Source: Rhodoferax sp. (GTDB lineage: Bacteria; Pseudomonadota; Gammaproteobacteria; Burkholderiales; Burkholderiaceae_C). From it: 59,014 nt of DNA. The notes under the pieces were generated by a model. That model did not search any database. It worked only from the letters and a program-made list of their open reading frames with translations, and had not been told where the DNA came from. The stretch lies in the NCBI RefSeq assembly GCF_018063565.1, contig NZ_JAGPBB010000013.1, positions 1-59,014 of the forward strand, given 5' to 3'. The position numbers were made by a program, and so were the translations under genes. This document shows, piece after piece, positions 7,933 through 59,014 of the stretch (the stretch's first letter is position 1; each line of letters opens with the position of its first letter).

Positions 7933-8195
7933 GCTGCACCAACTTTCTTTGCGAATGCCACCATCGCTGTGAAGTCGGCACAGTAACGTGTCAATCCGAA
8001 TTTGCAGCAAGTGAACCCGCCGTCGGGCGACCTGTGGACCGTGTGCCCGGCCAGCGCCAGTTTGGCCATCAACGTGGCAACGGTTTTTCCAGCATCTTGC
8101 GGGATCTGCCCAGGGCTGGCAGAATCTTGCTTGGTGGTGCCATCCGCCTGGCCTCCGAAGTTTGCCGCTTCGGGGGCTTTTCTTATGGTGAGCAT
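7929..8195 (-). CDS. hypothetical element protein, 88 aa
   Basis: Small basic protein with a variable Gly/Gln-rich N-terminus and a compact C-terminus (LMAKLALAGHTVHRSPDGG then FTCCKFGLTRYCADFTAMVAF). Three Cys lie close together in the second half. I recognise no function; similar small proteins are common beside integrases and AlpA regulators. Its stop overlaps the start of the Toprim gene by ATGA, so it is part of the same operon. Confidence 0.55.
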   Translation of the reverse strand: MLTIRKAPEAANFGGQADGTTKQDSASPGQIPQDAGKTVATLMAKLALAGHTVHRSPDGGFTCCKFGLTRYCADFTAMVAFAKKVGAA

Positions 8196-8210
8196 GGTGG
8201 TGTGCTCCCC

Positions 8211-8459
8211 TTAGATCGTTGCGGCCAGTTCGGCGCGTTGGGCGTGCAGCTTGGTCACCAAGGCGCGAAGCTGGTCGTCGTTGTAGCCAGCGACACGAGC
8301 ATTTGCCAAAGCTTGACATTCATAATCAGGCCATCCCTTTGAACGCAGGCCAATCGGAATGCCCTTCGTCAGCGTGCCGTCCCTTTGCGCTTCATACAAC
8401 GACGTGTCGGAAGGCCAGCCAAACACGTCCTTCACCCCAGGCGCTCGCAAAAACTTCAT
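8211..8459 (-). CDS. AlpA-family regulator / excisionase-like protein
   Basis: 82 residues starting MKFLRAPGVKDVFGWPSDTS, with the AlpA-type winged helix-turn-helix (LYEAQRDGTLTKGIPIG and WPDYECQALANAR). Such proteins activate integrase expression or act as directionality factors in P4-like elements. A longer frame reaches 8570, but the ATG at 8459 has a strong AAGGAG site at the right distance and begins exactly at the domain. A seven-base palindrome lies about 100 bases upstream. Confidence 0.75.
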   Translation of the reverse strand: MKFLRAPGVKDVFGWPSDTSLYEAQRDGTLTKGIPIGLRSKGWPDYECQALANARVAGYNDDQLRALVTKLHAQRAELAATI

Positions 8460-9293: not shown

Positions 9294-10529
9294 TTACGCC
9301 GCCTTGAACTTGATCACGTCGCCACCCTTGGCCAGCTTGTCCAAGTAGTCGGCCCATACTTGCAGCATTGCCGTCCTGTCCTCAAGGTGCGTGGTTCTGT
9401 CGTATGCGCCGCCGTGCGTGATCTGGCCTGTGTGGGCCAACTGCGCTTCAATCACATCCTTGGGGTACTTCAGCACTTGGCGCAAGATAGTGCGCCCTGT
9501 TGCCCGGTAGCCGTGCCAGGTGTGAATGCCTTTGTAGCCCATGGCCGCAAGCGCTGCACTCACCCCCGCCTCAGACATTGGGGCGCGCCAGTCACGCAGA
9601 CCCGGGAACACAAACTCGCGCTCACCTGTGAGCTTGTGCAGGTCGCGCAGTACCTCAACAGCCTGTCGCGGCAACGGGACTACATGGGGCTGTCCATTGA
9701 TCTTTTCGGCCTTGGTGCGCTTCATAGCCTCGCTGGGTATCGACCACAGCGCCCTATCCATATCCACATCAGCCCACCGCATCGTGCGCAGGTTGCCCGG
9801 CCGCTGGAACAGGATTGGTGCCAACTTCAGCGCGGCACGGACCGTTGGCCCACCCTGATAGGCGTCGCTGGCGCGCAGCAGTTCACCCAGCTTCACCGGG
9901 TCGATGATGGCTGGCAGGTTCTCCTTGATATGCGGCCTCAAGGCTTTCTTAATGTCCTGCGAAATATCGCGCTCTGCCCGGCCTGTCGCTACAGCATGGC
10001 ACCACACGCCGTGCGCCGTGATCAGGACCCTGTGCGCCACGTCCAGGCTACCTCGGGCCTCCACCTTCTGAATCACCGCCAGTAGCTCGATCGGCTTGAT
10101 GCTGGCAATCACCCGCTTGCCCAGGTACGGCATCAGGTCCTTGGTGATGTTGCGCCGCTCACGGACATAGTGGGTTTCGCTCCAATTGGGCTTACCGCGT
10201 TCCAGCCAATCGCTGGCGGTGGCGGTCAAGGTGTCCCCGCTGCCCACAGATTCCTTGAGCCGTTCGACCTGACGGGCCTGGAGTGGGTCGATACCATCGG
10301 CCTTCTGGATCTTGGCCGCATCCCGGGCTTTGCGTGCCGCCGTCAGTGTCACATCCGGGTAGCTGCCCAGCGCCAGTTGCTTTTCTTTGCCGTCCACACG
10401 GTACTTCAGAAACCAGCGCTTCGAGCCAGCCGGGCTAACTTGCAGATACATGCCGCCAGAATCAGCAAAACGGGCTTGTTTGCGTTCAGGTGGGCATTTT
10501 GCGTTGCGGCATTGGGCATCGGTCAGCAT
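9294..10529 (-). CDS. P4-type tyrosine integrase (DUF4102 N-terminus)
   Basis: A 411-residue site-specific recombinase. The N-terminal 85 residues match the DUF4102 arm-binding domain (GGMYLQVSPAGSKRWFLKYR, LGSYPDVTLTAARKARD). The catalytic residues of tyrosine recombinases are all recognisable: R243 in QRPGNLR, H339 and R342 in HGYRATGR, H366 in QLAHTG and the nucleophile Y376 in GGAYDRT. The gene appears intact. Its start is about 230 bases from the 3' end of tRNA-Thr, so tRNA-directed insertion of this element is the simplest reading. Confidence 0.93.
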   Translation of the reverse strand: MLTDAQCRNAKCPPERKQARFADSGGMYLQVSPAGSKRWFLKYRVDGKEKQLALGSYPDVTLTAARKARDAAKIQKADGIDPLQARQVERLKESVGSGDTLTATASDWLERGKPNWSETHYVRERRNITKDLMPYLGKRVIASIKPIELLAVIQKVEARGSLDVAHRVLITAHGVWCHAVATGRAERDISQDIKKALRPHIKENLPAIIDPVKLGELLRASDAYQGGPTVRAALKLAPILFQRPGNLRTMRWADVDMDRALWSIPSEAMKRTKAEKINGQPHVVPLPRQAVEVLRDLHKLTGEREFVFPGLRDWRAPMSEAGVSAALAAMGYKGIHTWHGYRATGRTILRQVLKYPKDVIEAQLAHTGQITHGGAYDRTTHLEDRTAMLQVWADYLDKLAKGGDVIKFKAA

Positions 10530-10567
10530 GAGGGGGCAACTCCAGCGGTAGGGGGGTGTAAACAGTG

Positions 10568-10714
10568 TTTTTCATTGGGAAACGGGGGTGCGTACCCCCA
10601 CTTTTTCAAGAAAACTCAAAATCTCCCCCCATTTGTACCCCCGATTTGTCCCGGCTGTCAATGTATCTCCCCGTATCTCCCTGGAGTGTATTTAGGTGCT
10701 TTCCCAATGAAAAA
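10568..10714. repeat. integrase upstream region with 15-bp inverted repeat and G-rich motifs
   Basis: TTTTTCATTGGGAAA at 10568-10582 recurs as its exact reverse complement at 10700-10714. Between the two lie a GGGGGTGCGTACCCCC palindrome (10585-10600), further TACCCCC motifs near 10647 and a doubled GTATCTCCC. Such ordered short sites between an integrase gene and its tRNA are typical of arm-type binding sites and the attachment core. Which base is the crossover point cannot be told. Confidence 0.55.
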
Positions 10715-10746
10715 GGCCACCAAGAGTATGTCTTTGGTGGCCTTTG
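10709..10746 (-). terminator. terminator of tRNA-Thr
   Basis: On the minus strand AAAGGCCACCAA pairs with TTGGTGGCCTTT across a short loop, followed by a T run. It begins about 13 bases after the encoded CCA of tRNA-Thr. The stem is strong and nearly symmetrical. Confidence 0.75.
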
Positions 10747-10756
10747 TATGAATGAC

Positions 10757-10832
10757 TGGTGCCGATTATCGGATTCGAACTGATGACCTACCGCTTACAA
10801 GGCGGTTGCTCTACCAACTGAGCTAAATCGGC
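10757..10832 (-). tRNA. tRNA-Thr(TGT)
   Basis: On the minus strand the sequence folds as a cloverleaf: acceptor GCCGATT/AATCGGC, D-arm AGCTCAGTTGGTAGAGC, anticodon stem CCGCC/GGCGG with loop TTGTAAG giving anticodon TGT, and T-arm with TTCGAATCC. The 3' CCA is encoded (10757-10759). It reads out of the sspB side towards the integrase and is the likely insertion target of the element. Confidence 0.95.
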
Positions 10833-10875
10833 AACGGGCCAAATTCTACATGACGCAGAAACTACCCCAGCACGG

Positions 10876-11403
10876 TCACTTGATGCGGGTCAGCGTTGGT
10901 TTGCCAGACGATTTGACCGGCTTCGGCTTGTGCGCGGCTGGCTCATGCGATTGATCCGAGTCGGCAACTTCTTTCGGCAACTGTTCCTTTGCCTGGGCTT
11001 TGGCCGCCACATCTGCGAGCTTGACGGCGGGTCGAGCGGCTGATGTGCTGCCAGGACGCGTCAGAGCAGGGCGATCCGGTTTGGGGAACGCCATACCCTG
11101 GCCGTTTTCACGCGCAAAGATCGCGATAACCTGCTCCATCGGCACGATGATTTCCCGCACCGCGCCGGAAAACCGCGCTTTGAACTCAAGGTAATCGTTG
11201 CCCATGCGCAAAGCGGTGGTCGCATCCATCCCGATATTGAGCACGATCTCGTCGTTCTTGACGTATTCCAGCGGGACCTGAACAGATCCGTCAACCGCCA
11301 CCGTGACATAGGGAGTCAACCCATTGTCACTGCACCATTCGTGCAACGCCCGGATCAGGTAGGGCCGTGTGGAGCTGGGTTCATCCTCTTGTTTGGCTGC
11401 CAT
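10876..11403 (-). CDS. sspB: ClpXP protease specificity-enhancing factor SspB
   Basis: 175 residues. SspB delivers SsrA-tagged proteins to ClpXP. The folded N-terminal domain is clear (RPYLIRALHEWCSDNGLTPYV, then VPLEYVKNDEIVLNIG and FSGAVREIIVPMEQVIAIFARENGQGM). The C-terminal third is a flexible Ala/Pro/Lys-rich tail ending in PTLTRIK, comparable to the ClpX-docking tail of the family. It lies 12 bases after sspA, as in many proteobacteria, and the tRNA-Thr gene follows. Confidence 0.93.
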   Translation of the reverse strand: MAAKQEDEPSSTRPYLIRALHEWCSDNGLTPYVTVAVDGSVQVPLEYVKNDEIVLNIGMDATTALRMGNDYLEFKARFSGAVREIIVPMEQVIAIFARENGQGMAFPKPDRPALTRPGSTSAARPAVKLADVAAKAQAKEQLPKEVADSDQSHEPAAHKPKPVKSSGKPTLTRIK

Positions 11404-11415
11404 AGTGACCGGCGC

Positions 11416-12027
11416 TTACTTGCGCATCACTTTCTCAGACGGGGTGAGCGCCTCAATATAGGCCGGACGCGAGAAGATTCGCTCAGCATACTTGAGCAAC
11501 GGTGCCGCATTCTTGCTAAGTTCAATGCCGTAGTAGTCCAAACGCCACAACAAAGGCGCAATTGCCACATCGAGCATCGAAAACCCGTCGCCAAGCATGA
11601 ACTTGTTCTTGAGAAACACCGGTGCCAGTTGGGTTAGCCGATCACGGATGTGAGCGCGGGCCTTCTCCAGCGCCTTTTCATTGGATTTGGCGGTGCGAGA
11701 CTCCAGAATCGACACATGGACAAACAGTTCTTTCTCGAAATTGAGCAAGAACAAGCGCACACGTGCCCGGTCCACCGGGTCGCCCGGCATGAGTTGGGGA
11801 TGCGGAAAACGCTCATCGATGTACTCGTTGATGATGTTGGACTCATAAAGAATCAAATCACGCTCGACCAGAATCGGCACTTGCCCATACGGATTCATCA
11901 CACTGATGTCTTCGGGCTTGTTGTAAAGGTCAACGTCCCGAATTTCAAAATCCATGCCCTTCTCAAACAAGACAAAACGGCAACGGTGGGAAAAAGGACA
12001 GGTTGTTCCTGAATAAAGCACCATCAT
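11416..12027 (-). CDS. sspA: stringent starvation protein A (glutathione S-transferase fold)
   Basis: 203 residues with a thioredoxin-like N-terminal domain (MVLYSGTTCPFSHRCRFVLF, NPYGQVPILVERDLILYESNIINEYIDERFPHPQL) and an all-helical C-terminal domain (FMLGDGFSMLDVAIAPLLWRLDYYGI). SspA binds RNA polymerase and acts in stationary phase and acid stress; it has no GST activity in characterised members. The ribosome site AGGAG is six bases before the ATG. It forms an operon with sspB and is separated from petC by a terminator-like hairpin. Confidence 0.94.
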   Translation of the reverse strand: MMVLYSGTTCPFSHRCRFVLFEKGMDFEIRDVDLYNKPEDISVMNPYGQVPILVERDLILYESNIINEYIDERFPHPQLMPGDPVDRARVRLFLLNFEKELFVHVSILESRTAKSNEKALEKARAHIRDRLTQLAPVFLKNKFMLGDGFSMLDVAIAPLLWRLDYYGIELSKNAAPLLKYAERIFSRPAYIEALTPSEKVMRK

Positions 12028-12041
12028 GGTTGCAGGCTCCT

Positions 12042-12079
12042 AAAAAAATAAAAGAGCGGGAGCTGTCAGGCATCCCACT
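12042..12079 (-). terminator. intrinsic terminator between petC and sspA
   Basis: On the minus strand AGTGGGA pairs with TCCCGCT (one G-U) around an 11-base loop, followed by CTTTTATTTTTTT. It lies after petC and directly before the sspA ribosome site, so it should uncouple the bc1 operon from sspAB. Confidence 0.65.
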
Positions 12080-12086
12080 CTGAAGA

Positions 12087-12116
12087 ATCTGCGCATCACC
12101 CTAAGGGCGCGCAGAT
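12087..12116 (-). other. strong hairpin downstream of petC
   Basis: ATCTGCGC and GCGCAGAT are perfect eight-base arms. The loop contains a further CCC/GGG pairing. It sits 14 bases after the petC stop, upstream of the terminator, and may protect the petABC transcript 3' end. Confidence 0.5.
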
Positions 12117-12129
12117 CGATGATCGCCAA

Positions 12130-12819
12130 CTACTTGATGTCTTTCCAGTAAACGGCATTGAGCCGCCAGGTCAGAAATGTCAATATGGCCAAAAACGCCA
12201 GAACCCACAGACCGATGTTCTTGCGTGTGGTCTGGGCAGGCTCTGCCATCCACTGCAGGTAGTTGACCAAGTCACCAATGGTCTGATCGTATTGGGCCGG
12301 AGTCAGGCTTCCTTGCAATTCCCAAAGGACGTGGGGCATCGCCACATTCGGGAAAACATGATTGTTCCAGCCCGTGGGCTTGGTCTCGTCACGGTAAAAA
12401 CCCCGCATATAAGAATACAGGTAGTCGGTACCGGTACCACCAGCGCCTGCGCGCGAACGCGCAATCACGGTCAGGTCAGGCGGATTCACGCCAAACCACG
12501 CCTTGGCCTGTTTGGGGTCAATGGCTGCAATCATGGTCTCACCCAACTTGGCGTTGGTGACCAGCAGGTTGTCCTTGATCTGCTCGGGGGTCAAACCGAT
12601 GTCCTGCAGACGGTTGTAACGCATGAACGCTGCTGAATGGCAATTCAGACAGTAATTGACAAACGTCTTGGCACCGCTTTGCAATGCCGCCATGTCCTTG
12701 ATCTTGTCCGGCGCCTTATCCCACGCGGGTCCAGCAACATTGGCGTGCACCGTTGCGGCCAAACCCAGAACACACATCAAACTAAGAATAACTTTTTTTG
12801 TGAGACCCATGGTATTCAT
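12130..12819 (-). CDS. petC: cytochrome c1 of the bc1 complex
   Basis: 229 residues. Signal peptide (KVILSLMCVLGLAATVHA), haem c motif CLNCH near residue 57, a Met ligand in FPNVAMPHVLWE and a C-terminal membrane anchor (IGLWVLAFLAILTFLTWRL). This is the periplasmic electron carrier of ubiquinol:cytochrome c reductase. It is the third gene of the petABC operon, 15 bases after petB. The length is close to that of other betaproteobacterial cytochromes c1. Confidence 0.95.
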   Translation of the reverse strand: MNTMGLTKKVILSLMCVLGLAATVHANVAGPAWDKAPDKIKDMAALQSGAKTFVNYCLNCHSAAFMRYNRLQDIGLTPEQIKDNLLVTNAKLGETMIAAIDPKQAKAWFGVNPPDLTVIARSRAGAGGTGTDYLYSYMRGFYRDETKPTGWNNHVFPNVAMPHVLWELQGSLTPAQYDQTIGDLVNYLQWMAEPAQTTRKNIGLWVLAFLAILTFLTWRLNAVYWKDIK

Positions 12820-12834
12820 GTTTTGTTCTCCTGC

Positions 12835-14235
12835 TCAATGCGCCGTGAAAGTGACGCGACTGGGCACAGTTTTAAACGTCCCAAGACGGCTCCACCATGG
12901 CATCAGAATAAAAAAGCCAAAGTAGAAAAGCGTACCGGCCTGGGAAATGCGCCCGGCAATGTCAGACACCGGTTGCGTGCCAAGGTAGCCGATGACAAAA
13001 AAGTTGATGACGAAAACAGCGTAGAGAACCTTGTGCCAGTTCGGACGGTAACGAATGGACTTGACCGGGCTGTTGTCCAGCCAGGGCAGGAAGAACAGGA
13101 TCACCACACCGCCACCCATGGCGACCACGCCCCAGAATTTGGCATCAATGGCCATCATCATGGCTGAAATGACCAGCGCACCGCCCACGATCGCACCCTT
13201 GAAGAGGACTGGCATCTTGATTTTGGCAACTGCCAGCACCGCACCCAAGATCACACAGGCTATCAGCACATACATCATCTCGCTGGTCACAGCGCGCAGC
13301 AGTGTGTAGAACGGCGTGAAATACCAGACCGGTGCGATGTGCAACGGTGTCTGGAACGGGTCAGCCGGAATGAAATTGTTGTACTCCAGAAAGTAGCCAC
13401 CCATCTCCGGGGCAAAAAACACCACCGCGCTGAACACAAACAGGAACACGCTAACGCCGAACACGTCATGCACCGAGTAGTACGGATGGAACGGAATGCC
13501 GTCCAGCGGGATACCTTTGGCATCTTTGGTTGCTTTGATCTCAACGCCGTCGGGGTTGTTGGAGCCCACCTCATGCAAGGCAATGATGTGCGCCACCACC
13601 AGACCGAGCAGCACCAGCGGCACAGCGATCACGTGGAAGCTGAAGAAGCGGTTCAGGGTGGCATCACCCACCACAAAGTCGCCACGAATCAGCAGCGCCA
13701 GGTCCGGGCCGATGAAAGGAATGGCAGAGAACAGGTTAACGATCACCTGCGCGCCCCAATAGCTCATCTGCCCCCAGGGCAGCAGGTAGCCCATAAAGGC
13801 CTCCGCCATCAAGGCCAGGAAGATGCCACAGCCAAACAGCCAGATCAGCTCACGCGGCTTACGGTAGCTGCCATACATCAGGCCACGGAACATGTGCAGA
13901 TACACCACCACAAAAAACGCTGACGCGCCGGTGGAGTGCATGTAGCGAATCAGCCAGCCCCAGGGTACATCGCGCATGATGTACTCAACTGACGCAAACG
14001 CCACTGCTGCATCCGGCTTGTAATGCATCACCAGAAAGATGCCGGTGACGATCTGGATCACCAGCACCAGCAGCGACAAAGAGCCAAAGATGTACCAAAA
14101 GTTGAAGTTCTTCGGTGCGTAATACTCACTCATGTGCTCTTTGAAGAGCTTGGACAAGGGAAAACGGTTGTCAACCCAGTTGAGTGCCTTGTCGCCCAGC
14201 GGGGCGTTGGGGGAGATTTCGTGAAATTCAGCCAT
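12835..14235 (-). CDS. petB: cytochrome b of the bc1 complex
   Basis: 466 residues with eight predicted membrane helices. Paired haem-ligand His are seen in [18 protein letters not shown] and [20 protein letters not shown], and the quinol-site PEWY-type motif appears as [15 protein letters not shown] (Val for Glu-region variation, APVWY). It carries both haems b and the Qo and Qi sites. The C-terminal extension with extra helices ([26 protein letters not shown]) is as in other betaproteobacteria. It lies between petA and petC. Confidence 0.95.
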
Positions 14236-14246
14236 GTCGTTCGTCC

Positions 14247-14861
14247 TTAGGCTTTCTTGTCGTCACCAATGAGCAACTTGGTGTCTGAGAGGTACATATG
14301 CGGGGGCACTTCGAGATTGTCCGGTGCGGGCTTGTTTTTATAGACACGCCCCGCCAGATCGAAGGTGGAACCGTGACAGGGGCAGAAAAAACCTCCGTCC
14401 CAGTCATCAGGCAACGAAGGTTGTGGCCCCGGCTTGAACTTGTCAGACGGAGAACAACCCAAATGGGTGCAAATGCCGACGACCACCAGAAACTCGGGCT
14501 TGCGTGAGCGAACTTCGTTGCGTGCGTATTCAGGGGCCTGTTCAGCAGGCTTGCGTTCAGACTTGGGGTCGGCCAGTTGGTCGTTGTGTTTGGGCAACGC
14601 AGCCAACTGCTCCGGTGTGCGGCGCACCACCCAGACAGGCTTGCCACGCCATTCCACCGTTAACTTCTCACCCGGTGCCAAAGCTGAGATGTCAGCCTCA
14701 ACGGCTGCGCCTGCTGCCTTGGCCTTCTCGGAAGGAAGGAAGGAACTGACAAAGGGAACAACTGCGGCGACACCACCAACGGCACCAGCGCAGCCGGATG
14801 CAATCAGCCATGTCCGCTTGCTCGCGTCATTCAGATTGCTTACGGCGATAGCTTCACTCAT
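14247..14861 (-). CDS. petA: Rieske iron-sulfur subunit of the bc1 complex
   Basis: 204 residues. The [2Fe-2S] ligands are in CTHLGC and CPCHGS, the two Rieske boxes. The N-terminus has [17 protein letters not shown], a Tat-like signal/anchor in which Lys-Arg replaces Arg-Arg. The start at 14861 has a GAGG site; the frame upstream to 14891 has no signal character. Rieske proteins fold before export and normally need Tat, and tatABC are encoded in this same window (19022-20554). Confidence 0.95.
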
Positions 14862-15051
14862 GGAAATCCTCAATGATAAAGACCACAACACTTAACAGCT
14901 TTTGATTGTAACTGAGCAACTTGCAGCCAAATGACGGCGCTCCCTCCATCAAAGCCTGAGGCTCAAGTATATGCAGCCCGGCTGATGTTACCTGAGCCTG
15001 CAAGGATCATTTATATTCGGCACTTCGTTCAAAACTATTTAAAGGCTAACC

Positions 15052-15483
15052 ATGAGCATGATGTCTGAATTCAAGGAATTTGCGGTCAAGGGCAACGTGA
15101 TGGACCTTGCCGTCGGCGTGATCATTGGCGGCGCTTTCGGCAAGATTGTGGATTCAGTCGTGGGTGACCTGATCATGCCGGTGGTGGGTGCGGTTTTTGG
15201 CAAGCTCGATTTTTCCAACCTGTTTGTGGTGCTGGGTCAGATTCCGGCTGGAACCGGTGCCACGCTGGCAGATCTGAAAAAGGCCGGCGTTCCGGTTTTT
15301 GCCTATGGAAACTTCGTCACCGTTGCGGTCAACTTTGCAATTTTGGCGTTCATTATTTTCATGATGGTCAAACAAATCAACCGTCTGAAAAAAGAAGCCC
15401 CGGCAGCACCTGCACCCGAGCCAGCTCCGACGCCTGAGGACGTGGTCCTGTTGCGCGAGATTCGGGATAGCCTGAAGAAGTGA
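15052..15483 (+). CDS. mscL: large-conductance mechanosensitive channel
   Basis: 143 residues. Typical MscL order: N-terminal amphipathic helix ([37 protein letters not shown]), TM1, periplasmic loop, TM2 ([25 protein letters not shown]) and a cytoplasmic charged helix ([13 protein letters not shown]) after an Ala/Pro linker. It opens on membrane tension to release solutes on osmotic downshock. It is divergent from petA with a 190-base gap that must hold both promoters; AAGG stands before the ATG. Confidence 0.96.
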
Positions 15484-15487
15484 CACT

Positions 15488-15537
15488 ATTTTTTATAGCT
15501 TAAAGCGCTCATGAATCAAGCGCTTAAGGCAGTTTGA
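15488..15537 (+). repeat. dispersed intergenic repeat, copy after mscL
   Basis: ATAGCT, then AAGCGCT and AGCGCTT arms that can pair, ending in AAGGC. It fills the gap between the convergent mscL and pdxA genes. It matches the pattern of the other copies listed at 22261, 24635, 36550, 43213, 50043, 52648, 53983 and 56168. Confidence 0.6.
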
Positions 15538-15538
15538 T

Positions 15539-16582
15539 CTAGTTTTTTAACAGTTGCCGTGCCATGCGGATCGCCTCGATCAGGCTGGACGCATCGGCCT
15601 GACCGGTGCCGGCAATGTCAAATGCAGTGCCGTGGTCAGGGCTGGTGCGAACCAGTGGCAAACCCAGCGTCACATTGACGCCATTTTCAACACCCAGGTA
15701 TTTCACCGGGATCAAGCCCTGATCGTGGTACATGGCCAGCACTACGTCGAACTCACCCGGCACATCGCCTTTGGCGCGCGCTCGCATGAACACGGTGTCG
15801 GGTGGCTGCGCATCGCTGGCCATCACACCCTGCTGTCGCGCGGCCGCAATGGCGGGGGCGATGTAGCGCTGCTCCTCGTCGCCAAACAGGCCATCTTCTC
15901 CGGCGTGAGGGTTGAGCGCTGCCACACCGATGCGGGGTGAACGCCCCAAAATGTTGGCTAACGCCCGGTGGGTGATCAGCAGGCTCTGTAGCACATTGTC
16001 AAAGGTGACGGCGTCGATGGCCTGACGCAACGAAACATGAATGCTGACCAATACCACCCGCAGCGCATCGTTGGCCAGCATCATGCGTACCGGCAATTCG
16101 CTCAGAGTCTTGCCGGTGTGCGCCATGGCCAGCGCCTGCAGCAACTCGGTATGCCCCGGGTAGCGGTGATAGGGTTGCCCTGCCAATGACAACGCCGCCT
16201 TGTTCAGGGGTGCCGTCACCACGGCAGTAGCCTCACCACGCAGCACCGCATTGGCGGCCCAGACCACACAGTCGCCGGCCATGCGACCGGCTTGCGCTGA
16301 CACCTGACCGAACGGCACCAGCGGCGCGGCGCCGAACGGAAGCTGCAGTACCGGAACACAACGCGGCGGGCAATCCAGCGCGGCCTGAAGCGTGTTCACC
16401 GCCGCCACCGGCACTGGCACGGCGCTGCCTGCAACCACCTGGACCGCACGGCGCACGGTGGCCAGATCACCCACCACGCAGCAACCAGCCGTCAGACTTG
16501 GCGCATCGCGAAAAGCCTTCACGATGATCTCCGGGCCAATACCAGCCGGGTCGCCGAGCGTGATGGCAATAGGACGTTGCAT
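15539..16582 (-). CDS. pdxA: 4-hydroxythreonine-4-phosphate dehydrogenase
   Basis: 347 residues. PdxA oxidises 4-phosphohydroxy-L-threonine in pyridoxal phosphate synthesis. The family start ITLGDPAGIGPEI, the metal/substrate segment HRYPGHTELL, LNPHAGEDGLFG and YHDQGLIPVKYLG are all present, so the active-site His residues are intact. It is followed by the Nif3-like gene upstream on the same strand (24-base gap). Confidence 0.95.
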   Translation of the reverse strand: MQRPIAITLGDPAGIGPEIIVKAFRDAPSLTAGCCVVGDLATVRRAVQVVAGSAVPVPVAAVNTLQAALDCPPRCVPVLQLPFGAAPLVPFGQVSAQAGRMAGDCVVWAANAVLRGEATAVVTAPLNKAALSLAGQPYHRYPGHTELLQALAMAHTGKTLSELPVRMMLANDALRVVLVSIHVSLRQAIDAVTFDNVLQSLLITHRALANILGRSPRIGVAALNPHAGEDGLFGDEEQRYIAPAIAAARQQGVMASDAQPPDTVFMRARAKGDVPGEFDVVLAMYHDQGLIPVKYLGVENGVNVTLGLPLVRTSPDHGTAFDIAGTGQADASSLIEAIRMARQLLKN

Positions 16583-54316: not shown

Positions 54317-55615
54317 TTACAGGTTACCGAGTTTTCGGAACAGGGTGCGTTCGCTGATGCCAAGTTGTCGCGCCAGCGCGGGGCGATCACCTTGGTGTGC
54401 CGCCACCGCCCAGGCCAGGTAACGGTGCTCGTTTTCTTTGAGTGTCAACCAGGTGCCGTCGATCTCTTTGGGGCGCGTCACCGTGCTGGCTTCCGCTTCG
54501 CTCTCCATGTCGAGGATATGCCGTGACTCAATTTCATCACCATCGGCCAGCAGACTGGCACGTTCGAGAAGATTGCGCAATTCCCGAATGTTGCCTTCGA
54601 ACGGCATGGCCGCCAGCAGCGTCATCGCCTCGGCACTTAAATGCAATTCGCGTCCTGGTGCAACGCGCGAAAGCAGCGACTCTACGAGCAGCGAGAGGTC
54701 GGGCGCACGATCTCGCAAGGACGGCGCATAGATCGGAAATGTGTTGATACGGAAGTACAGATCGCGGCGAAAAGCTTCCGCCTTGACCAAAGCTTCCAGA
54801 TCGCGGTGCGTCGCCGAGATGAGGCGGAAATCCGCAGGCAACACCTCGACACCGCCGACGCGTCGATAGGTGCCGGTTTCGAGCAATCGCAACAGTTTGA
54901 CTTGCAGGGCCGGCGGCAGATCCCCAATCTCGTCAAGAAACAAGGTGCCGCCGCTGGCCGACTCGATGAGGCCTTGTTTGCGGTGCGTCGCGCCGGTGAA
55001 GGCACCTTTCTCGTAGCCAAACAGTTCGCTTTCGAACAGGGACTCCGTCAAACCTGAGCAGTCAACCGGCACGAACGGCCGGGCCGCGCGCGCACTTCCC
55101 TCGTGGATTGCCCGAGCCATAAGTTCCTTGCCGGTACCGGTTTCACCCAGCAGCATCACCGCCGCCATTGACGGTGCTACGCGCATCACCCGTGCCAGCA
55201 TCCGCGTAAAGGCTGGTGAGCGCCCAACCAAACCCTGCGACGCTGGCCGACTGCTGGCTTGGCGCACCACGCGCATCGTCTCGACGTAAAGGGTTCTCTC
55301 GCCGTTGTCATCGCGGATTGGCGTCGTTTCCACATCGACATGCTCTTCGCCATGCGCGGTGTAGTGAAGATGGAGTACGCGCTCTTTCTGGTTACTGCTT
55401 CGGCTCGCCTGCAGGGGACAAGATTCACCCGCCTGATCACAGGGCACGCTGAATCGGTGCGAAATTTCATAACAAAGGCGTCCAACTACCGGGCCGTTGT
55501 TGCTGAAGTCGCGCAGATAGGCCTGATTGGCTGAGAGTATTCGGTAATTGGCATCCATCACGATGCTGGGTTCGTCGAATGAATCCAGAAACGAACTGAT
55601 CTTGTTTAGGTTCAT
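54317..55615 (-). CDS. sigma-54-dependent activator with Cys-containing PAS domain
   Basis: 432 residues. N-terminal PAS domain ([20 protein letters not shown]) with a Cys cluster [13 protein letters not shown] ... GESCPLQA. The AAA+ domain has Walker A GETGTGKE, the sigma-54 contact loop GAFTGA and Walker [10 protein letters not shown] Fis-type HTH ([20 protein letters not shown]) ends it. The frame extends to 55699, but [13 protein letters not shown] at 55615 is the natural start. It diverges from a sulfur-redox operon that has a sigma-54-like promoter, so it is the likely activator; the Cys cluster may sense redox or sulfur state (inference). Confidence 0.88.
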
Positions 55616-55648
55616 GCCTATCTTCCAGGGTTTTTGGGTGCCAATTAT

Positions 55649-55671
55649 GGCAGTCTCGTAGTTTAACTGCC
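55649..55671. promoter_or_regulatory. inverted repeat upstream of the sigma-54 activator
   Basis: GGCAGT and ACTGCC are perfect arms with 11 bases between. It lies 34-56 bases upstream of the activator start and about 90 bases from the divergent sigma-54 promoter, a reasonable place for the activator binding site. Confidence 0.4.
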
Positions 55672-55755
55672 GCCATTTTTTGCCAATGATCCGATTCAAT
55701 GGCGACGAAGCAGAAAAATAATCAACATTATCAACGAGTTACAGAATCGTCTTAT

Positions 55756-55771
55756 TGGCTCGGTTTGTGCA
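55756..55771 (+). promoter_or_regulatory. sigma-54 promoter of the sulfur-redox operon
   Basis: TGGCTCGGTTTGTGCA: TGGC-CG for the -24 box (A to T at one position) and TGCA for the -12 box, with GG and GC ten bases apart. The expected start of transcription near 55782 is about 44 bases before the ATG at 55826, which follows a GGGAG site. Confidence 0.6.
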
Positions 55772-55825
55772 ATCACTGTTGCCACAGATTCATCGATTTC
55801 ATACTCCCTGATTGGGAGAACCATC

Positions 55826-56177
55826 ATGAGCCAGACCGATCCGCAACATCAATTGACGCAACTGCAGAAGTCACATCAACACTGTTTATTTATATGCCAA
55901 TAGTGGAGTTGATGATTTCAATGTTGTCGGTTTACATCCTCTTGCGTTCGATGCGCATGCCCGCCAGCTGGTTTTCAGCCTGCTCCTTGGCTCGAAAGGT
56001 CAATCAATGAGTGTCATCGTTGAGACGGTACAGGGCCGTGCTGAAAACTGGGCATTGACAGAACAGTGGAAATTCGGACCAAACGGGACCCAAGCGCATT
56101 CGCGCTGCAACCACATGAACAAGCCCCCGATACAGAAAGCCTCCATCAGACACGGTTGCCAGCTAGCGCTTTTTTGA
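55826..56177 (+). pseudogene. broken first gene of the sulfur-redox operon
   Basis: An ATG at 55826 with GGGAGA site gives MSQTDPQHQLTQLQKSHQHC then a stop at 55901. A +1 frame shift within the first 60 bases opens a frame running through YLYANSGVDDFNVVGLHPLA and QSMSVIVETVQGRAENWALT to a stop at 56175 inside a dispersed repeat. A second candidate start in that frame is the ATG at 56007. Codon use in the shifted frame is moderate. It may be a real frameshift, a sequencing error, or two short ORFs; the family is unknown. Confidence 0.4.
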
Positions 56178-56218
56178 TAGCTATTACCGCTTTAAATAAC
56201 AGCGGTTGCGGCTTTTTC
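56168..56218 (+). repeat. dispersed repeat / hairpin in the sulfur operon leader
   Basis: TTTTTTGATAGCTATTACCGC, then AACAGCGGTTGCGGCTTTTT. ACCGCT and AGCGGT can pair, followed within a few bases by a T run, so it may also act as a weak terminator between the broken first gene and dsrE. Confidence 0.55.
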
Positions 56219-56222
56219 AACA

Positions 56223-56402
56223 ATGAACAGACTCGACATAAACCATGTTACGCAGGCACCTAAACCAAATGAGTGGTCCAGCAGTGCAATGAACAAATAT
56301 GGAGCCATTTGCCAAGGCTGCATCGGAATTTACCTCTGGTGTGCTACGGAGACTGGCAAGCAAAACTTTGTGCAACTAATTGAGGAAAGTCAACATGAGT
56401 GA
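56223..56402 (+). CDS. small Cys-containing protein overlapping dsrE
   Basis: A 59-residue frame starting MNRLDINHVTQAPKPNEWSS with ICQGCIGIYLWC in the middle (three Cys) and ending in IEESQHE. Its last codons overlap the dsrE start (ATG at 56395, stop at 56400-56402), which suggests translational coupling. I recognise no family. It is too short to be certain, but the overlap and the Cys motif in a sulfur operon are suggestive. Confidence 0.4.
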   Translation: MNRLDINHVTQAPKPNEWSSSAMNKYGAICQGCIGIYLWCATETGKQNFVQLIEESQHE

Positions 56403-56886
56403 CAACCAAAACAACGATCAGCTAGTGAAAGACCTGCTCAAACGGGTGGAAGCGCTTGAGAACGCGGCTCCCAAAGACCAGCTTACCCTGGGTGTCATGA
56501 GCGGCGATCTTGAGCACACGATGGGTGCGTTCATGATCGCACTCGGGGCAACAACTTTCGACACAGAAGTCGACATGTTCTTCATGCTCCGGGCTACCGC
56601 AGCACTGGTTGATCCGAGCAAGGCCAAACAGGACATGCCTGACGCGGCGCGCGCATTGCAGCCATCGGAGATCAAGTTTGATTTGAAGAAACACAACGCC
56701 ATGCCACTTGAAGAGCTCATCCGCAACGCCGGTGAACTCGGGGTGCGGATCACTGTCTGCAACCTGTCTCTGGATCTCATGGGCATCAAGCGTGAAGACC
56801 TGATCGACTACCCGAACCTGAAATTTGCCGGTGTTGCCACCTTAATCGACATGTGTAGCCACTCGAAGCAATGCTGGTTCATGTAA
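56395..56886 (+). CDS. DsrE-family sulfur-transfer protein
   Basis: 163 residues. After a charged helical N-terminus the DsrE fold is visible: LTLGVMSGDLEHTMGAFMIALGATTFDTEVDMFFMLRA and the conserved active Cys region RITVCNLSLDLMGI, with a further Cys pair at the very end (MCSHSKQCWFM). Members such as DsrE and DsrE2 carry persulfide sulfur to TusA. GAGGAAAG precedes the ATG; the frame upstream to 56380 is ignored. Followed by tusA. Confidence 0.85.
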   Translation: MSDNQNNDQLVKDLLKRVEALENAAPKDQLTLGVMSGDLEHTMGAFMIALGATTFDTEVDMFFMLRATAALVDPSKAKQDMPDAARALQPSEIKFDLKKHNAMPLEELIRNAGELGVRITVCNLSLDLMGIKREDLIDYPNLKFAGVATLIDMCSHSKQCWFM

Positions 56887-56934
56887 AAGATTTTTTAAAC
56901 CCATTTTTTAAACCATCAGAAAAGGCGAAATACC

Positions 56935-57189
56935 ATGAATGCTAGCGAATTAAAAGCACTGACGATCGGCAAAGTCATTGATGCCCGTGGCACTGCTTGC
57001 CCTGGGCCCATGCTCGAAGCAAAGCGCGCCATTGGCGAAGTTGCTGTGGGTGGGGCCATGGAAGTGCAATCTTCTGACAGCGGCACCATCATTGACATTC
57101 AGCGTTGGTGCAAGAAGATGGGCCACGAGTATCTCGGCGATGTCGAGAATGATGGGTTCTGGAGCGTTTACCTGCGTCGGAAGGTCTAA
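56935..57189 (+). CDS. tusA: TusA-family sulfur carrier
   Basis: 84 residues. VIDARGTACPGPMLEAKRAI contains the CPxP motif whose Cys carries persulfide; the C-terminal strands (GAMEVQSSDSGTIIDIQRWCKK) are normal. The symbol is given at family level, because several TusA paralogues exist in sulfur oxidisers. It lies between dsrE and the FlpD-like gene, which argues for a special role and not for tRNA thiolation. Confidence 0.88.
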   Translation: MNASELKALTIGKVIDARGTACPGPMLEAKRAIGEVAVGGAMEVQSSDSGTIIDIQRWCKKMGHEYLGDVENDGFWSVYLRRKV

Positions 57190-57191
57190 AA

Positions 57192-57599
57192 GTGAGCACC
57201 CCCGACAGCAAAGATGCACCGAAGATCCTCGTGTTCTCAACGAACGCGATCTCGGATCCGGGAATTGACCAAGCTGGCAGTGCACATTTGCACTATTCGA
57301 CAGCCGTTCAGGTCATTCCCTTGCCCTGTTCCAGCGGTGTCAAGCCATCTTGGATCGTTCACGCCCTCGAACGTGGCTTCGACGGTGTATTTATTGCCGC
57401 CTGCGGGGGTGACTGTGCCTATCTGACCGATTGCACATCGCGCACCAGCACACTGGTTACGCGCGCGCAAACGATGATGAAAGAGCACGGCATCAGTCCC
57501 AAGCGACTGAAGATGGCCGGGCTCTGTTCCGTCTGCGCGGACAACTTCGTTGTTCACATGAACAAATACCAACAGGAGTTAAAGTCTCTTGAAGCCTAA
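57192..57599 (+). CDS. FlpD/MvhD-like iron-sulfur electron-transfer protein
   Basis: 135 residues, GTG start two bases after tusA with GGAAGG upstream. Cys are at LPCSSGVKPSWIVHALERGFDGVFIAACGGDCAYL, TDCTS and GLCSVCADNF, the pattern of the [2Fe-2S] subunit that links hydrogenase or formate dehydrogenase to HdrA. Here no hydrogenase is seen. It overlaps the start of the HdrA-like gene by 11 bases. Confidence 0.8.
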   Translation: MSTPDSKDAPKILVFSTNAISDPGIDQAGSAHLHYSTAVQVIPLPCSSGVKPSWIVHALERGFDGVFIAACGGDCAYLTDCTSRTSTLVTRAQTMMKEHGISPKRLKMAGLCSVCADNFVVHMNKYQQELKSLEA

Positions 57600-59014
57600 T
57601 ACTGAAACACGTCCGCTGGACTACGATGTGATGGTGGTGGGTGCTGGCGTTGCCGGCATGGAAACCGCTGCCTCGATGGGCGATATGGGATACCGCGTGT
57701 TGCTGGTGGACAAAGACGCCAGCATTGGCGGCAGGGCCATCTTGCTGAGCAAGGTATTCCCGACGCTCGATTGCGCGAGCTGCATCGTGACGCCAAAAAT
57801 GGCGTCTGTCTCGCACCACCCCAATGTGCAAATCATGACCTACAGCGAGGTCGATAGCGTTGTGCGCAACGCCGACGGCTCGTTCGCTGTCGATCTGCAT
57901 AAGAAGGCGTCTTACGTTGATTTTGATGCTTGCACGGGATGCGGCAAGTGTGAAGAGATTTGCACGGTCACGGTACCCGATCAGTACAACTACGGTCTGG
58001 TCACACGCCGGGTGGCGCATATTCCTTTTCCGCAGGCCATCCCCAAAAAGGCGGTGATTGACCGGCGTGGCGAAGCACCCTGCACCTTCACTTGTCCGGG
58101 CAACGTCAAGGCCAGCGGTTATATCTCGCTGGTCAGGGCGGGGCGCTACAAAGAGGCGTTTGACCTGCATCTGGAAAACGCACCACTGGTCGGCAGCCTG
58201 GCGCGGGCGTGTTATGCGCCTTGCGAATCCGACTGCACGCGGGGCGACAAAGAAGGAACGGTTCAAATCCGTGGCATCAAGCGCTTTATGGCTGACCACT
58301 ACTACGCTGAGCATCCTGAACCCGAATACGGTCCGGTTGAGCACCAGCTGGCAACACGGGTTGCCGTGGTCGGCTCTGGCCCGGCGGGCTTGAGTGCTGC
58401 GTTCTATCTGGCGCGCGAAGGTCACCAAGTCACAATATTTGAGGCCGAGAGCAAGCCCGGTGGCATGCTGCGTACGGCTATCCCCCCGTATCGTTGCCCC
58501 AACGATGTGGTGGACCGTGATATCAAGAACGTCACGGCGCTGGGTGTCAAAATCAAGACCGGCCATCGGGTCACCGATTTGACTGAGCTCAAGCAGCAGG
58601 GCTTCAATGCCATTCTGATCACCACGGGTGCATCGGATGAAAACGGCCTGGATATTGATGGCCACGATCTGGACGGCGTCATGGGTTGCATGCATTTCCT
58701 GCATGAGATCAATATCGGTACCAAGCCCGATGTCAAAGGCAAAACCGTCATGGTCATTGGTGGCGGCAACTCGGCAATGGACCCGGCGCGGGCGGCTATC
58801 CGCATGGGTGCCAAGCGGGTCATCATCAACTACCGTCGCGGGCGCAAGGAAATGCCTGCGCATGAATGGGAAATTGACGGTGCCATTGAGGAAGGCGTTG
58901 AGCTCATGCTGATGAGCGCGCCGACCAAGTTCATTGGCAAGGACGGCAAACTGGTGGGTGTCGAATGCATCACCATGGAACTCGGCGAGCCCGACGAGAG
59001 CGGTCGCCGTCGTC
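57589..59014 (+). CDS. HdrA-GltD fusion flavoprotein (partial, runs off the window)
   Basis: At least 475 residues from a TTG at 57589 (AGGAG 11 bases upstream). Residues 12-150 are HdrA-like: FAD motif VVGAGVAGMETAASMG, LDCASCIVTPKM with Cys62 and Cys65, and a ferredoxin cluster CTGCGKCEEIC at 115-125. From 160 the chain becomes GltD-like: CTFTCPGNVKASGYISLV, ARACYAPCESDCTRG, a second FAD motif VVGSGPAGLSAAFYLAREG near 261 and an NAD(P) motif VIGGGNSAMDPARAA near 388. Two flavin sites in one chain would allow electron transfer or bifurcation between NAD(P)H and the sulfur proteins upstream. The 3' end is outside the window. Confidence 0.82.
   Translation, partial: MKPNTETRPLDYDVMVVGAGVAGMETAASMGDMGYRVLLVDKDASIGGRAILLSKVFPTLDCASCIVTPKMASVSHHPNVQIMTYSEVDSVVRNADGSFAVDLHKKASYVDFDACTGCGKCEEICTVTVPDQYNYGLVTRRVAHIPFPQAIPKKAVIDRRGEAPCTFTCPGNVKASGYISLVRAGRYKEAFDLHLENAPLVGSLARACYAPCESDCTRGDKEGTVQIRGIKRFMADHYYAEHPEPEYGPVEHQLATRVAVVGSGPAGLSAAFYLAREGHQVTIFEAESKPGGMLRTAIPPYRCPNDVVDRDIKNVTALGVKIKTGHRVTDLTELKQQGFNAILITTGASDENGLDIDGHDLDGVMGCMHFLHEINIGTKPDVKGKTVMVIGGGNSAMDPARAAIRMGAKRVIINYRRGRKEMPAHEWEIDGAIEEGVELMLMSAPTKFIGKDGKLVGVECITMELGEPDESGRRR

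Follow-up and report, generated by a model that had tools for sequence, protein, structure and literature searches.

It is not settled how sulfur oxidation or reduction in the cytoplasm could yield NAD(P)H while avoiding the cost of reverse electron flow. A group of genes at the 3' end of a Rhodoferax sp. contig bears on this question. The stretch of DNA analyzed here (the window) comprises the 59,014 nucleotides of NZ_JAGPBB010000013.1 in assembly GCF_018063565.1; it is the whole of contig C179 in its own assembly (G000, 196 contigs) and ends at base 59014. Its last four genes encode the sulfur carriers DsrE and TusA, an FlpD/MvhD-like iron-sulfur protein and the first part of an HdrA-type protein, here called HdrA', that contains a GltD-type NAD(P)H module. 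Comparison with related loci indicates that this combination of known modules is real and conserved and, within the literature searched, has not been described; it is a variant of the Hdr/Qmo family that includes sulfur carriers and a built-in NAD(P)H module. With moderate confidence, we interpret the products as an Hdr/Qmo-type complex that would be fed by sulfur carriers and exchange electrons with NAD(P)H, more likely in the oxidative direction in Rhodoferax.

The operon occupies the following positions of the window:

56395-56886, plus strand: dsrE, a DsrE-family protein of 163 amino acids (aa)
56935-57189, plus strand: tusA, a TusA sulfur carrier with a CPGP site
57192-57599, plus strand: flpD, an FlpD/MvhD-like iron-sulfur protein of 135 aa, with a GTG start
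57589-59013, plus strand: hdrA' with inserted GltD, with a TTG start; the 5' 475 codons of a gene that encodes 910 aa in full in locus L017
57772-57783, plus strand: Cys62/Cys65 of HdrA'; Cys65 corresponds to methanogen Cys197 in the alignment to structure 5odc and is found in 15 of 15 aligned HdrA' rows
57931-57963, plus strand: first 4Fe-4S motif of the HdrA inserted ferredoxin domain (Cys115-Cys125)
58066-59013, plus strand: GltD/NfnB-like insertion, from residue 160, with Fer4_20 cysteines at residues 165-216, the flavin adenine dinucleotide (FAD) motif GSGPAG at 262 and the NAD(P) motif GGGNSA at 391

The initial annotation, made from the letters of the window, described these genes as adjacent, on one strand and with overlaps or gaps of a few bases. 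This holds for the 2-base gap between tusA and flpD and the 11-base overlap between flpD and hdrA', but the gap between dsrE and tusA is 48 bases. Pfam matches at the locus all exceed the curated cut-offs (PF13686, 69 bits; PF01206, 71.5; PF02662, 100.7; PF00158, 220). In the long open reading frame (ORF), positions 135-290 of the HdrA2 profile match residues 7-162 with 185 bits, and the GltD-like profile PRK12771 matches residues 157-473 with 336 bits. The NCBIfam whole-protein cut-offs (1100 for HdrA2, 516 for PRK12771) are not reached, as is expected of a composite protein that is cut because the contig stops at 59014. Both parts nevertheless match solved structures by sequence, those of HdrA and of Nfn/Stn, respectively, and the strong HdrA similarity, seen in the 185-bit match and in the alignment to 5odc, led us to reject a GltD paralogue devoid of HdrA, which had been named in advance as one of two outcomes that would undo the proposal.

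What follows hdrA' was read from relatives. A search of genome contigs yielded 43 distinct loci, 16 of which (L011-L026) carry the cluster; L027-L053 were excluded from the counts of cluster members, and L003/L004 are duplicates of L017/L012. L017, from a Rhodoferax metagenome-assembled genome (MAG), is 98-99% identical across the window's portion of the fusion and has the order dsrE-tusA-flpD-hdrA'(GltD)-hdrA''-89-aa gene-hdrC-hdrB, so that the hdrB and hdrC genes suspected beyond the contig end are indeed present there, as they are in other relatives. The predicted products comprise 910 aa for HdrA', 592 aa for the second HdrA-type protein, HdrA'', 101 aa for HdrC (two 4Fe-4S motifs) and 325 aa for HdrB (one CCG domain); 3' of hdrB follow a cytochrome c-like protein, a YedE-type transporter and a protein with three rhodanese domains. 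Genes for TusA, FlpD and HdrA' occur in 16 of 16 loci, hdrA' being split in two pieces in L018 and L023 and cut by the contig end in L025. The hdrA'' gene and the 89-aa gene were found in all 15 loci that reach far enough, as was an HdrC-type ferredoxin (15/15), and dsrE was found in 13 of 16, including weak matches of 34-39% in L015 and L019. The 89-aa gene itself (L017:14505-14771), located between hdrA'' and hdrC wherever this could be read (15 of 15 loci), looks winged-helix-like, with a single Pfam match, below the cut-off.

The end of the cluster varies. HdrC plus HdrB form the terminal module in 11 of 14 readable loci, and in the other three (L019, L021 and L026) a single QmoC-like membrane protein with an HdrC-type N-terminus takes their place. 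Full-length matches of 171-207 bits to the QmoC model, below its cut-off of 300, identify the latter protein as a QmoC homologue by sequence, not QmoC proper.

Cluster hosts belong to the Beta- and Alphaproteobacteria, the Acidobacteriota, the Verrucomicrobiota and bacteria of unnamed phylum, and their record titles mention, among other sources, groundwater, fen and anoxic samples. The same gene order across several phyla rules out chance neighbors, and the proposed linkage of sulfur-relay genes to an HdrA/GltD electron module is consistent over the 16 loci, with sulfur-metabolism markers in 13 of 17 hosts. In a phylogenetic tree, HdrA'' sequences of 15 cluster loci form one clade with 100/100 support, within which three alphaproteobacterial rows, 79-82% identical to L017, nest among betaproteobacterial ones; this placement suggests lateral transfer. 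The cluster is rare. A class-wide sample of 369 genomes, with three candidates scored per genome, contained no close HdrA'' and two genomes with homologues of 36-37% identity. Among 60 relatives, three carry the full fusion and five more have GltD-only matches; the window's DsrE (E<=1e-10) occurs in exactly the three genomes with the full fusion, so that DsrE, the carrier used in this comparison, was not encountered without it; an occurrence of dsrE-tusA alone in relatives was the second outcome that had been named as damaging.

The architecture of HdrA' corrects the idea of an end-to-end HdrA-GltD fusion. On the methanogen HdrA structure 5odc, residues 14-159 of the L017 protein align to 146-290 and residues 633-902 to 293-564, and the GltD profile matches at 157-641, between these two parts. 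The alignment is thus split by a GltD/NfnB-like module of approximately 470 residues inserted into the HdrA inserted ferredoxin domain; the insertion point falls between 5odc residues 290 and 293, just ahead of the domain's second cluster motif. This is the arrangement that defines type III HdrA. HdrA' is devoid of the N- and C-terminal HdrA domains, and HdrA'' aligns to 5odc at 3-234 and 317-653, only the inserted ferredoxin domain being missing. In the methanogen HdrA dimer, Cys197 is supplied to the cluster of the partner (PMC9012536). All 15 aligned HdrA' rows have the equivalent of this residue (they comprise 13 cluster loci, L027 and L028; L018 and L023, with unmended frame breaks, L025, at a contig end, and the duplicates L003/L004 were left out). 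The 17 HdrA'' rows, drawn from 15 cluster loci, L027 and L028, are all free of cysteine in that stretch, and all keep the N-terminal cysteines. This is the division of tandem HdrA5/6-type proteins, in which one copy has the N-terminal domain without Cys197 and the other the reverse, and from their sequences we regard HdrA' and HdrA'' as complementary halves.

A lysine linked to the bifurcating flavin, Lys409 (PMC12054007), has an equivalent in 15 of 15 HdrA' rows; it is absent from HdrA'' of all 15 cluster loci and present in HdrA'' of L027 and L028. At the place of Glu356, the other residue near FAD that marks bifurcating HdrA, L017 HdrA' has Asp, and the Glu is absent from the 15 cluster HdrA'' and present in those of L027 and L028. 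The Cys motif and ferredoxin cluster of the HdrA part and the FAD and NAD(P) sites of the GltD part, all reported initially, were found and are conserved; for the Fer4_20 cysteines and both nucleotide motifs of the GltD module this was seen in the 15-row alignment. The NAD(P) motif reads GGGNSA (GXGXXA), with A396 in 15 of 15 rows, and not GXGXXG as in archaea. Since GXGXXG favors NAD+ (PMC12054007), the motif points, weakly, to a preference of the module for NADP(H). A structure model of HdrA' was of moderate quality (mean predicted local distance difference test score 75, predicted template modeling score 0.54), and Foldseek placed Nfn/Stn structures first, in strong support of that part, whereas an HdrA chain came only at rank 50 and fitted poorly (root mean square deviation 16.9). 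As the HdrA part is poorly resolved in this model, its assignment rests on sequence.

Residues expected of sulfur carriers are invariant. Cys22 of the TusA CPGP site is present in 16 of 16 rows (the window and 15 of the 16 loci; L012 was left out), and Cys122 and Cys160 of DsrE in 11 of 11 (the window and 10 loci; the weak L015 and L019 and the cut L022 were left out). HdrB has one CCG site (Cys220, Cys255-256, Cys290 and Cys293) in 11 of 11 sequences, the N-terminal site being without its Cys. By analogy with HdrB/DsrK-type proteins, HdrB would bind a cluster there and act on sulfur.

From gene content, insertion point, cofactor motifs, conservation and occurrence in hosts with sulfur markers we infer a complex, its sulfur substrate, its direction and possibly bifurcation, as follows. 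The genes at the 3' end of the window would form the first half of an operon that encodes a cytoplasmic Hdr/Qmo-type complex, to which DsrE and TusA would deliver sulfane sulfur as persulfide. The core would be a heterodimer of HdrA' and HdrA'' together with FlpD and HdrC, with HdrA' contributing FAD, the partner Cys and the inserted ferredoxin split by the GltD module, and HdrA'' the N-terminal cluster, FAD and the C-terminal ferredoxin. Most members would add HdrB with its one CCG cluster site, probably the sulfur site, and some a QmoC-like subunit, probably quinone-linked, in place of HdrC and HdrB. Electrons would then pass between the sulfur site and HdrC, through the HdrA flavins and the iron-sulfur chain, and on to GltD and NAD(P)H, in either direction. 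In Rhodoferax, the net reaction would more likely be oxidation of carrier-bound sulfane sulfur and reduction of NAD(P)+.

Sulfur metabolism of the hosts bears on this direction. After merging G064 with G021 and G075 with G004, which appear to be identical because their places and sizes agree, 17 hosts were counted, of which 11 have dsrA above the cut-off (plus one fragment, in G069), seven aprA and nine soxB, and 13 have at least one of the three. For control relatives, in which dsrA alone was counted, a match (E<=1e-50) was found in 11 of 36 genus genomes and 3 of 24 genomes of the remaining order sample. The association, expressed here in counts, fits sulfur metabolism. The window genome contains soxB as well as a dsr locus that includes dsrA and dsrH. 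At this locus (L060; G000:C196:20001-40000, minus strand), ORF sizes and order fit dsrABEFHCMKLJOP, the names other than dsrA and dsrH being assigned on that basis, and the genome thus looks to carry a complete dsr operon of the oxidative type. These two features, soxB and the dsr operon, lead us to favor the oxidative direction in Rhodoferax with modest confidence. A DsrL-like ORF with a GltD match lies inside this operon; replacement of DsrL by HdrA' was therefore rejected. In the Roseiarcus MAG that harbors L016 (G063:C27), dsrA and the cluster appear on one 32-kb contig, approximately 9-10 kb apart.

The reverse direction has to be considered as well, i.e., that the complex uses NAD(P)H to form sulfide from polysulfide, thiosulfate or the sulfane sulfur bound to carriers, in respiration, disproportionation or detoxification; ferredoxin or quinone might then serve as an additional acceptor. 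GltD modules commonly run from NAD(P)H, the bifurcation-type lysine is kept in HdrA', and the set of YedE, TusA and DsrE is reminiscent of the YTD cluster known from disproportionators, YedE being encoded in L017 and L022. A YedE homologue was, however, found in only these two of 16 loci, some of which have short flanks, and the presence of soxB in nine of 17 hosts fits oxidizers. We consider a reductive role possible, though rather unlikely.

The frequency of aprA addresses a further explanation, namely that the cluster encodes a Qmo-type electron partner of adenosine 5'-phosphosulfate (APS) reductase (QmoAB-HdrBC/HdrAACB or QmoABC) and lies near the carrier genes by chance. Its subunit logic is shared, with two HdrAs, FlpD/MvhD and HdrCB or a QmoC-like protein, but an APS reductase partner should be accompanied by and linked to aprA, and that gene occurs in only seven of 17 hosts. 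No aprA match was obtained at E<=1e-30 in the window genome, G004 or G021, nor was there a match in G074. Two hosts, moreover, have separate QmoAB-like pairs, named from HdrA similarity and place: in G066 the pair lies with an HdrC-type match beside aprA (L071), and in G067 beside dsrAB (L065). Identity to their QmoB-like proteins is 24-26%, and these are distant from HdrA'' in the tree. This explanation is therefore very improbable in our view.

Two loci outside the cluster set bear on a third alternative. L028, from a Thermoanaerobacteraceae MAG, has a Moorella-like arrangement (9962-14889 and 14925-16516) in which a 1489-aa ORF joins a GltD-inserted HdrA with HdrA'', followed by FlpD and two MetF-type genes (PF12225, PF02219). 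In L027 (1958-14143; MAG named Proteobacteria), a CO dehydrogenase-family gene lies upstream of hdrC, of an hdrB that has two CCG stretches, and of a long ORF for GltD-inserted HdrA that runs off the stretch. Type III HdrA thus occurs beside MetF genes and downstream of a CO dehydrogenase-family gene, with no TusA or DsrE matches at either locus, and the main role of the cluster could likewise be to provide low-potential ferredoxin (or confurcation) for another pathway, with TusA and DsrE acting as redox regulators or donors of cofactor sulfur. The constant 89-aa winged-helix-like protein would also be compatible with this. The constancy of TusA (16/16 loci) and the sulfur markers of 13 of 17 hosts argue otherwise, as does the lack of a recurring target gene among the annotated flanking ORFs, which cover part of the flanks; we judge such a role to be quite unlikely.

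Several observations count against a sulfur-fed complex as outlined above. A search of the window's own assembly did not reveal hdrA'', the best match there being the window's HdrA' itself (33% over 93 residues), and all 16 loci carry MAG titles, so that there is no cultured host. No dsrE was found in the fetched DNA of three of the 16 loci (L020, L024 and L026). The stretch read of the three QmoC-type variants (of 14 readable loci) contains no CCG subunit, and a CCG sulfur site therefore cannot be general. Four of the 17 hosts (G062, G068, G071 and G073) have no dsrA, aprA or soxB above the cut-off, one of them at least (G071, 1.8 Mb) being a small assembly. G004, of the genus Rhodoferax and 99% complete, carries the cluster and has no dsrA, and nine of the 11 genus genomes with a dsrA match are without the fusion, two carrying it; the Dsr pathway is therefore independent of the fusion. 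Finally, the direction of the reaction is not fixed by sequence.

A more far-reaching version of the oxidative reading is that the cluster represents a route by which sulfane sulfur is oxidized in the cytoplasm, the third after rDsr and sHdr. In this route, a lipoate-free complex would take the TusA/DsrE persulfide at a single CCG cluster and pass electrons directly to NAD(P)+ via the GltD module within HdrA. The HdrA' flavin would confurcate or bifurcate, the output module could be either HdrCB or a quinone-reactive QmoC-like protein, and the system would have spread laterally. We put this forward as a tentative and, taken as a whole, doubtful proposal.

Upstream of the operon, two further features were noted:

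54317-55615, minus strand: sigma-54 activator, with a PAS domain containing several Cys, an AAA+ domain and a Fis-type helix-turn-helix (HTH), divergent from the operon; the ATG start was picked by us, and the longest ORF begins at 55699
55756-55771, plus strand: candidate sigma-54 (-24/-12) promoter, a consensus match at 10 of 12 positions

The activator had been taken to be the cluster's own. Its divergent orientation and cysteine-containing PAS domain are as described, but an activator at least 60% identical was present in only two (L017 and L013, the latter at 67% identity) of 13 relative loci with at least 5 kb upstream and was not found in the other 11, L020 having a match of only 32%. 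As a fixed part of the cluster it is therefore rejected; its occurrence is local, in a few betaproteobacteria. A plus-strand sigma-54-like site is found in the window (10/12), L017 (10/12) and L013 (11/12), in each case some 110-155 bases from where the activator approximately starts, and the window and L017 retain it inside diverged sequence. The scanned upstream regions of six loci without the activator contained one 9/12 site (L016). Given a background of 15 sites of at least 10/12 on both strands of the window, the activator-linked site is no more than suggestive. A 12/12 sigma-54-type site on the minus strand at L017:8656, between the activator and dsrE and directed at the activator, is without a window counterpart above the threshold. 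In the same region, L017 contains an ORF of 60 aa that includes a hydrophobic segment (8104-8286); the frame is shifted in its window counterpart (55826-56006), where this small ORF looks broken or never to have been coding.

Flanking genes were diverse, and the 20 annotated ORFs of other loci had mostly no sulfur connection. Multihaem cytochrome and cytochrome b561 genes lie near the cluster in L017 (2897-5536), and a b561 homologue (57%) lies directly downstream of it in L013 (16182-16775). Upstream of the cluster, L016 (4270-6015) and L019 (3679-5583) encode a pyridine-nucleotide-disulfide oxidoreductase with a C-terminal rhodanese domain, possibly another sulfane-sulfur enzyme. In L026 (4709-5410), an ArsR-type HTH fused to a TusA domain adjoins a radical SAM gene approximately 4 kb upstream of the cluster.

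How the cluster relates to known systems was assessed from the accessible parts of the cited papers. Among sulfur systems, YTD clusters are described as combining YedE, TusA and DsrE, without mention of Hdr genes (PMC12998232, PMC9751629, PMC8780430); our cluster departs from the set of yedE, tusA, dsrE and two to three conserved hypothetical genes (the latter not searched for) in that a yedE homologue is present in two of 16 loci and the linked genes are Hdr-type. The DsrL protein of the rDsr pathway is an NAD(P)H iron-sulfur flavoprotein of sulfur oxidation (PMC7596348). The resemblance to DsrL noted initially goes no further than GltD-type homology, as determined here by similarity, with 29% identity over 565 columns of the GltD part, and the DsrL-like ORF of the window genome is a separate one. 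sHdr of sulfur oxidizers comes with TusA/DsrE carriers. Hdr-like proteins in sulfur oxidizers are a shared trait, but sHdr is a sulfur-oxidation complex with the lipoate-binding protein LbpA (PMC6067878) and the gene order hdrCBA-hyp-hdrCB (PMC6397845), in contrast to the two HdrAs, one HdrC, one HdrB (or QmoC-like protein), separate FlpD and built-in NAD(P)H module found here; no LbpA was seen among the annotated flanking ORFs, and no systematic search aimed at it was made.

QmoABC and QmoAB-HdrBC (HdrAACB) of sulfate reducers and sulfur oxidizers (PMC10504309, PMC6397845) share two HdrA-type subunits, an MvhD-type protein or domain and QmoC or HdrCB with the cluster; as described there, they have no GltD insertion or carriers, and the cluster is not tied to aprA. 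In Desulfurivibrio dismutans, HdrA/HdrL beside MvhD was proposed to link sulfur oxidation (electrons from DsrC trisulfide) to NAD(P)H or formate dehydrogenase (PMC12142623). That HdrA likewise has two NADH/FAD-binding domains and adjoins MvhD, but it stands beside fdhAB and Wood-Ljungdahl genes instead of tusA and dsrE.

Architectural counterparts come from archaea and Moorella. For ANME-1 and Bathyarchaeota, GltD-inserted HdrA was described under the name type III HdrA, from nine archaeal sequences (PMC12054007), and HdrA9-11 of ANME-1 have a GltD-type insertion (PMC9012536). HdrA' shares with these the GltD/NfnB-like module in the ferredoxin domain and, with the A6-derived A9, the absence of the N- and C-terminal domains; it differs in its GXGXXA motif and its setting, which is bacterial with TusA in 16 of 16 loci versus archaeal and, as described there, without sulfur carriers. 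In a Lokiarchaeota MAG (L049), tandem split HdrAs are repeated within 19 kb, with four HdrA'' matches accompanied by FlpD and three matches to HdrA' that have no GltD. MetFV-HdrABC-MvhD of Moorella thermoacetica, in which a GltD domain interrupts the TrxR-like domain of HdrA (PMC9430772), likewise combines a GltD-interrupted HdrA with HdrBC and MvhD, but has one long HdrA and MetVF where our cluster has two HdrAs, TusA/DsrE and a single-CCG HdrB or a QmoC-like protein. GltD-inserted HdrA and tandem complementary HdrAs are, therefore, already published for archaea and Moorella, which qualifies the initial impression of an unrecognized combination; their association with TusA and DsrE is what we found no description of in the searched literature, which excludes most subscription papers and all bioRxiv preprints. 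A tusA gene adjoining GltD-inserted hdrA is a usable marker of the cluster, which may represent an undescribed way for cells to use sulfur. If our interpretation is true, a compact complex linking sulfur carriers to NAD(P)H, and probably to quinone in some lineages, would offer an answer to the question posed at the outset for a set of uncultured bacteria and add a sulfur branch to the HdrA family.

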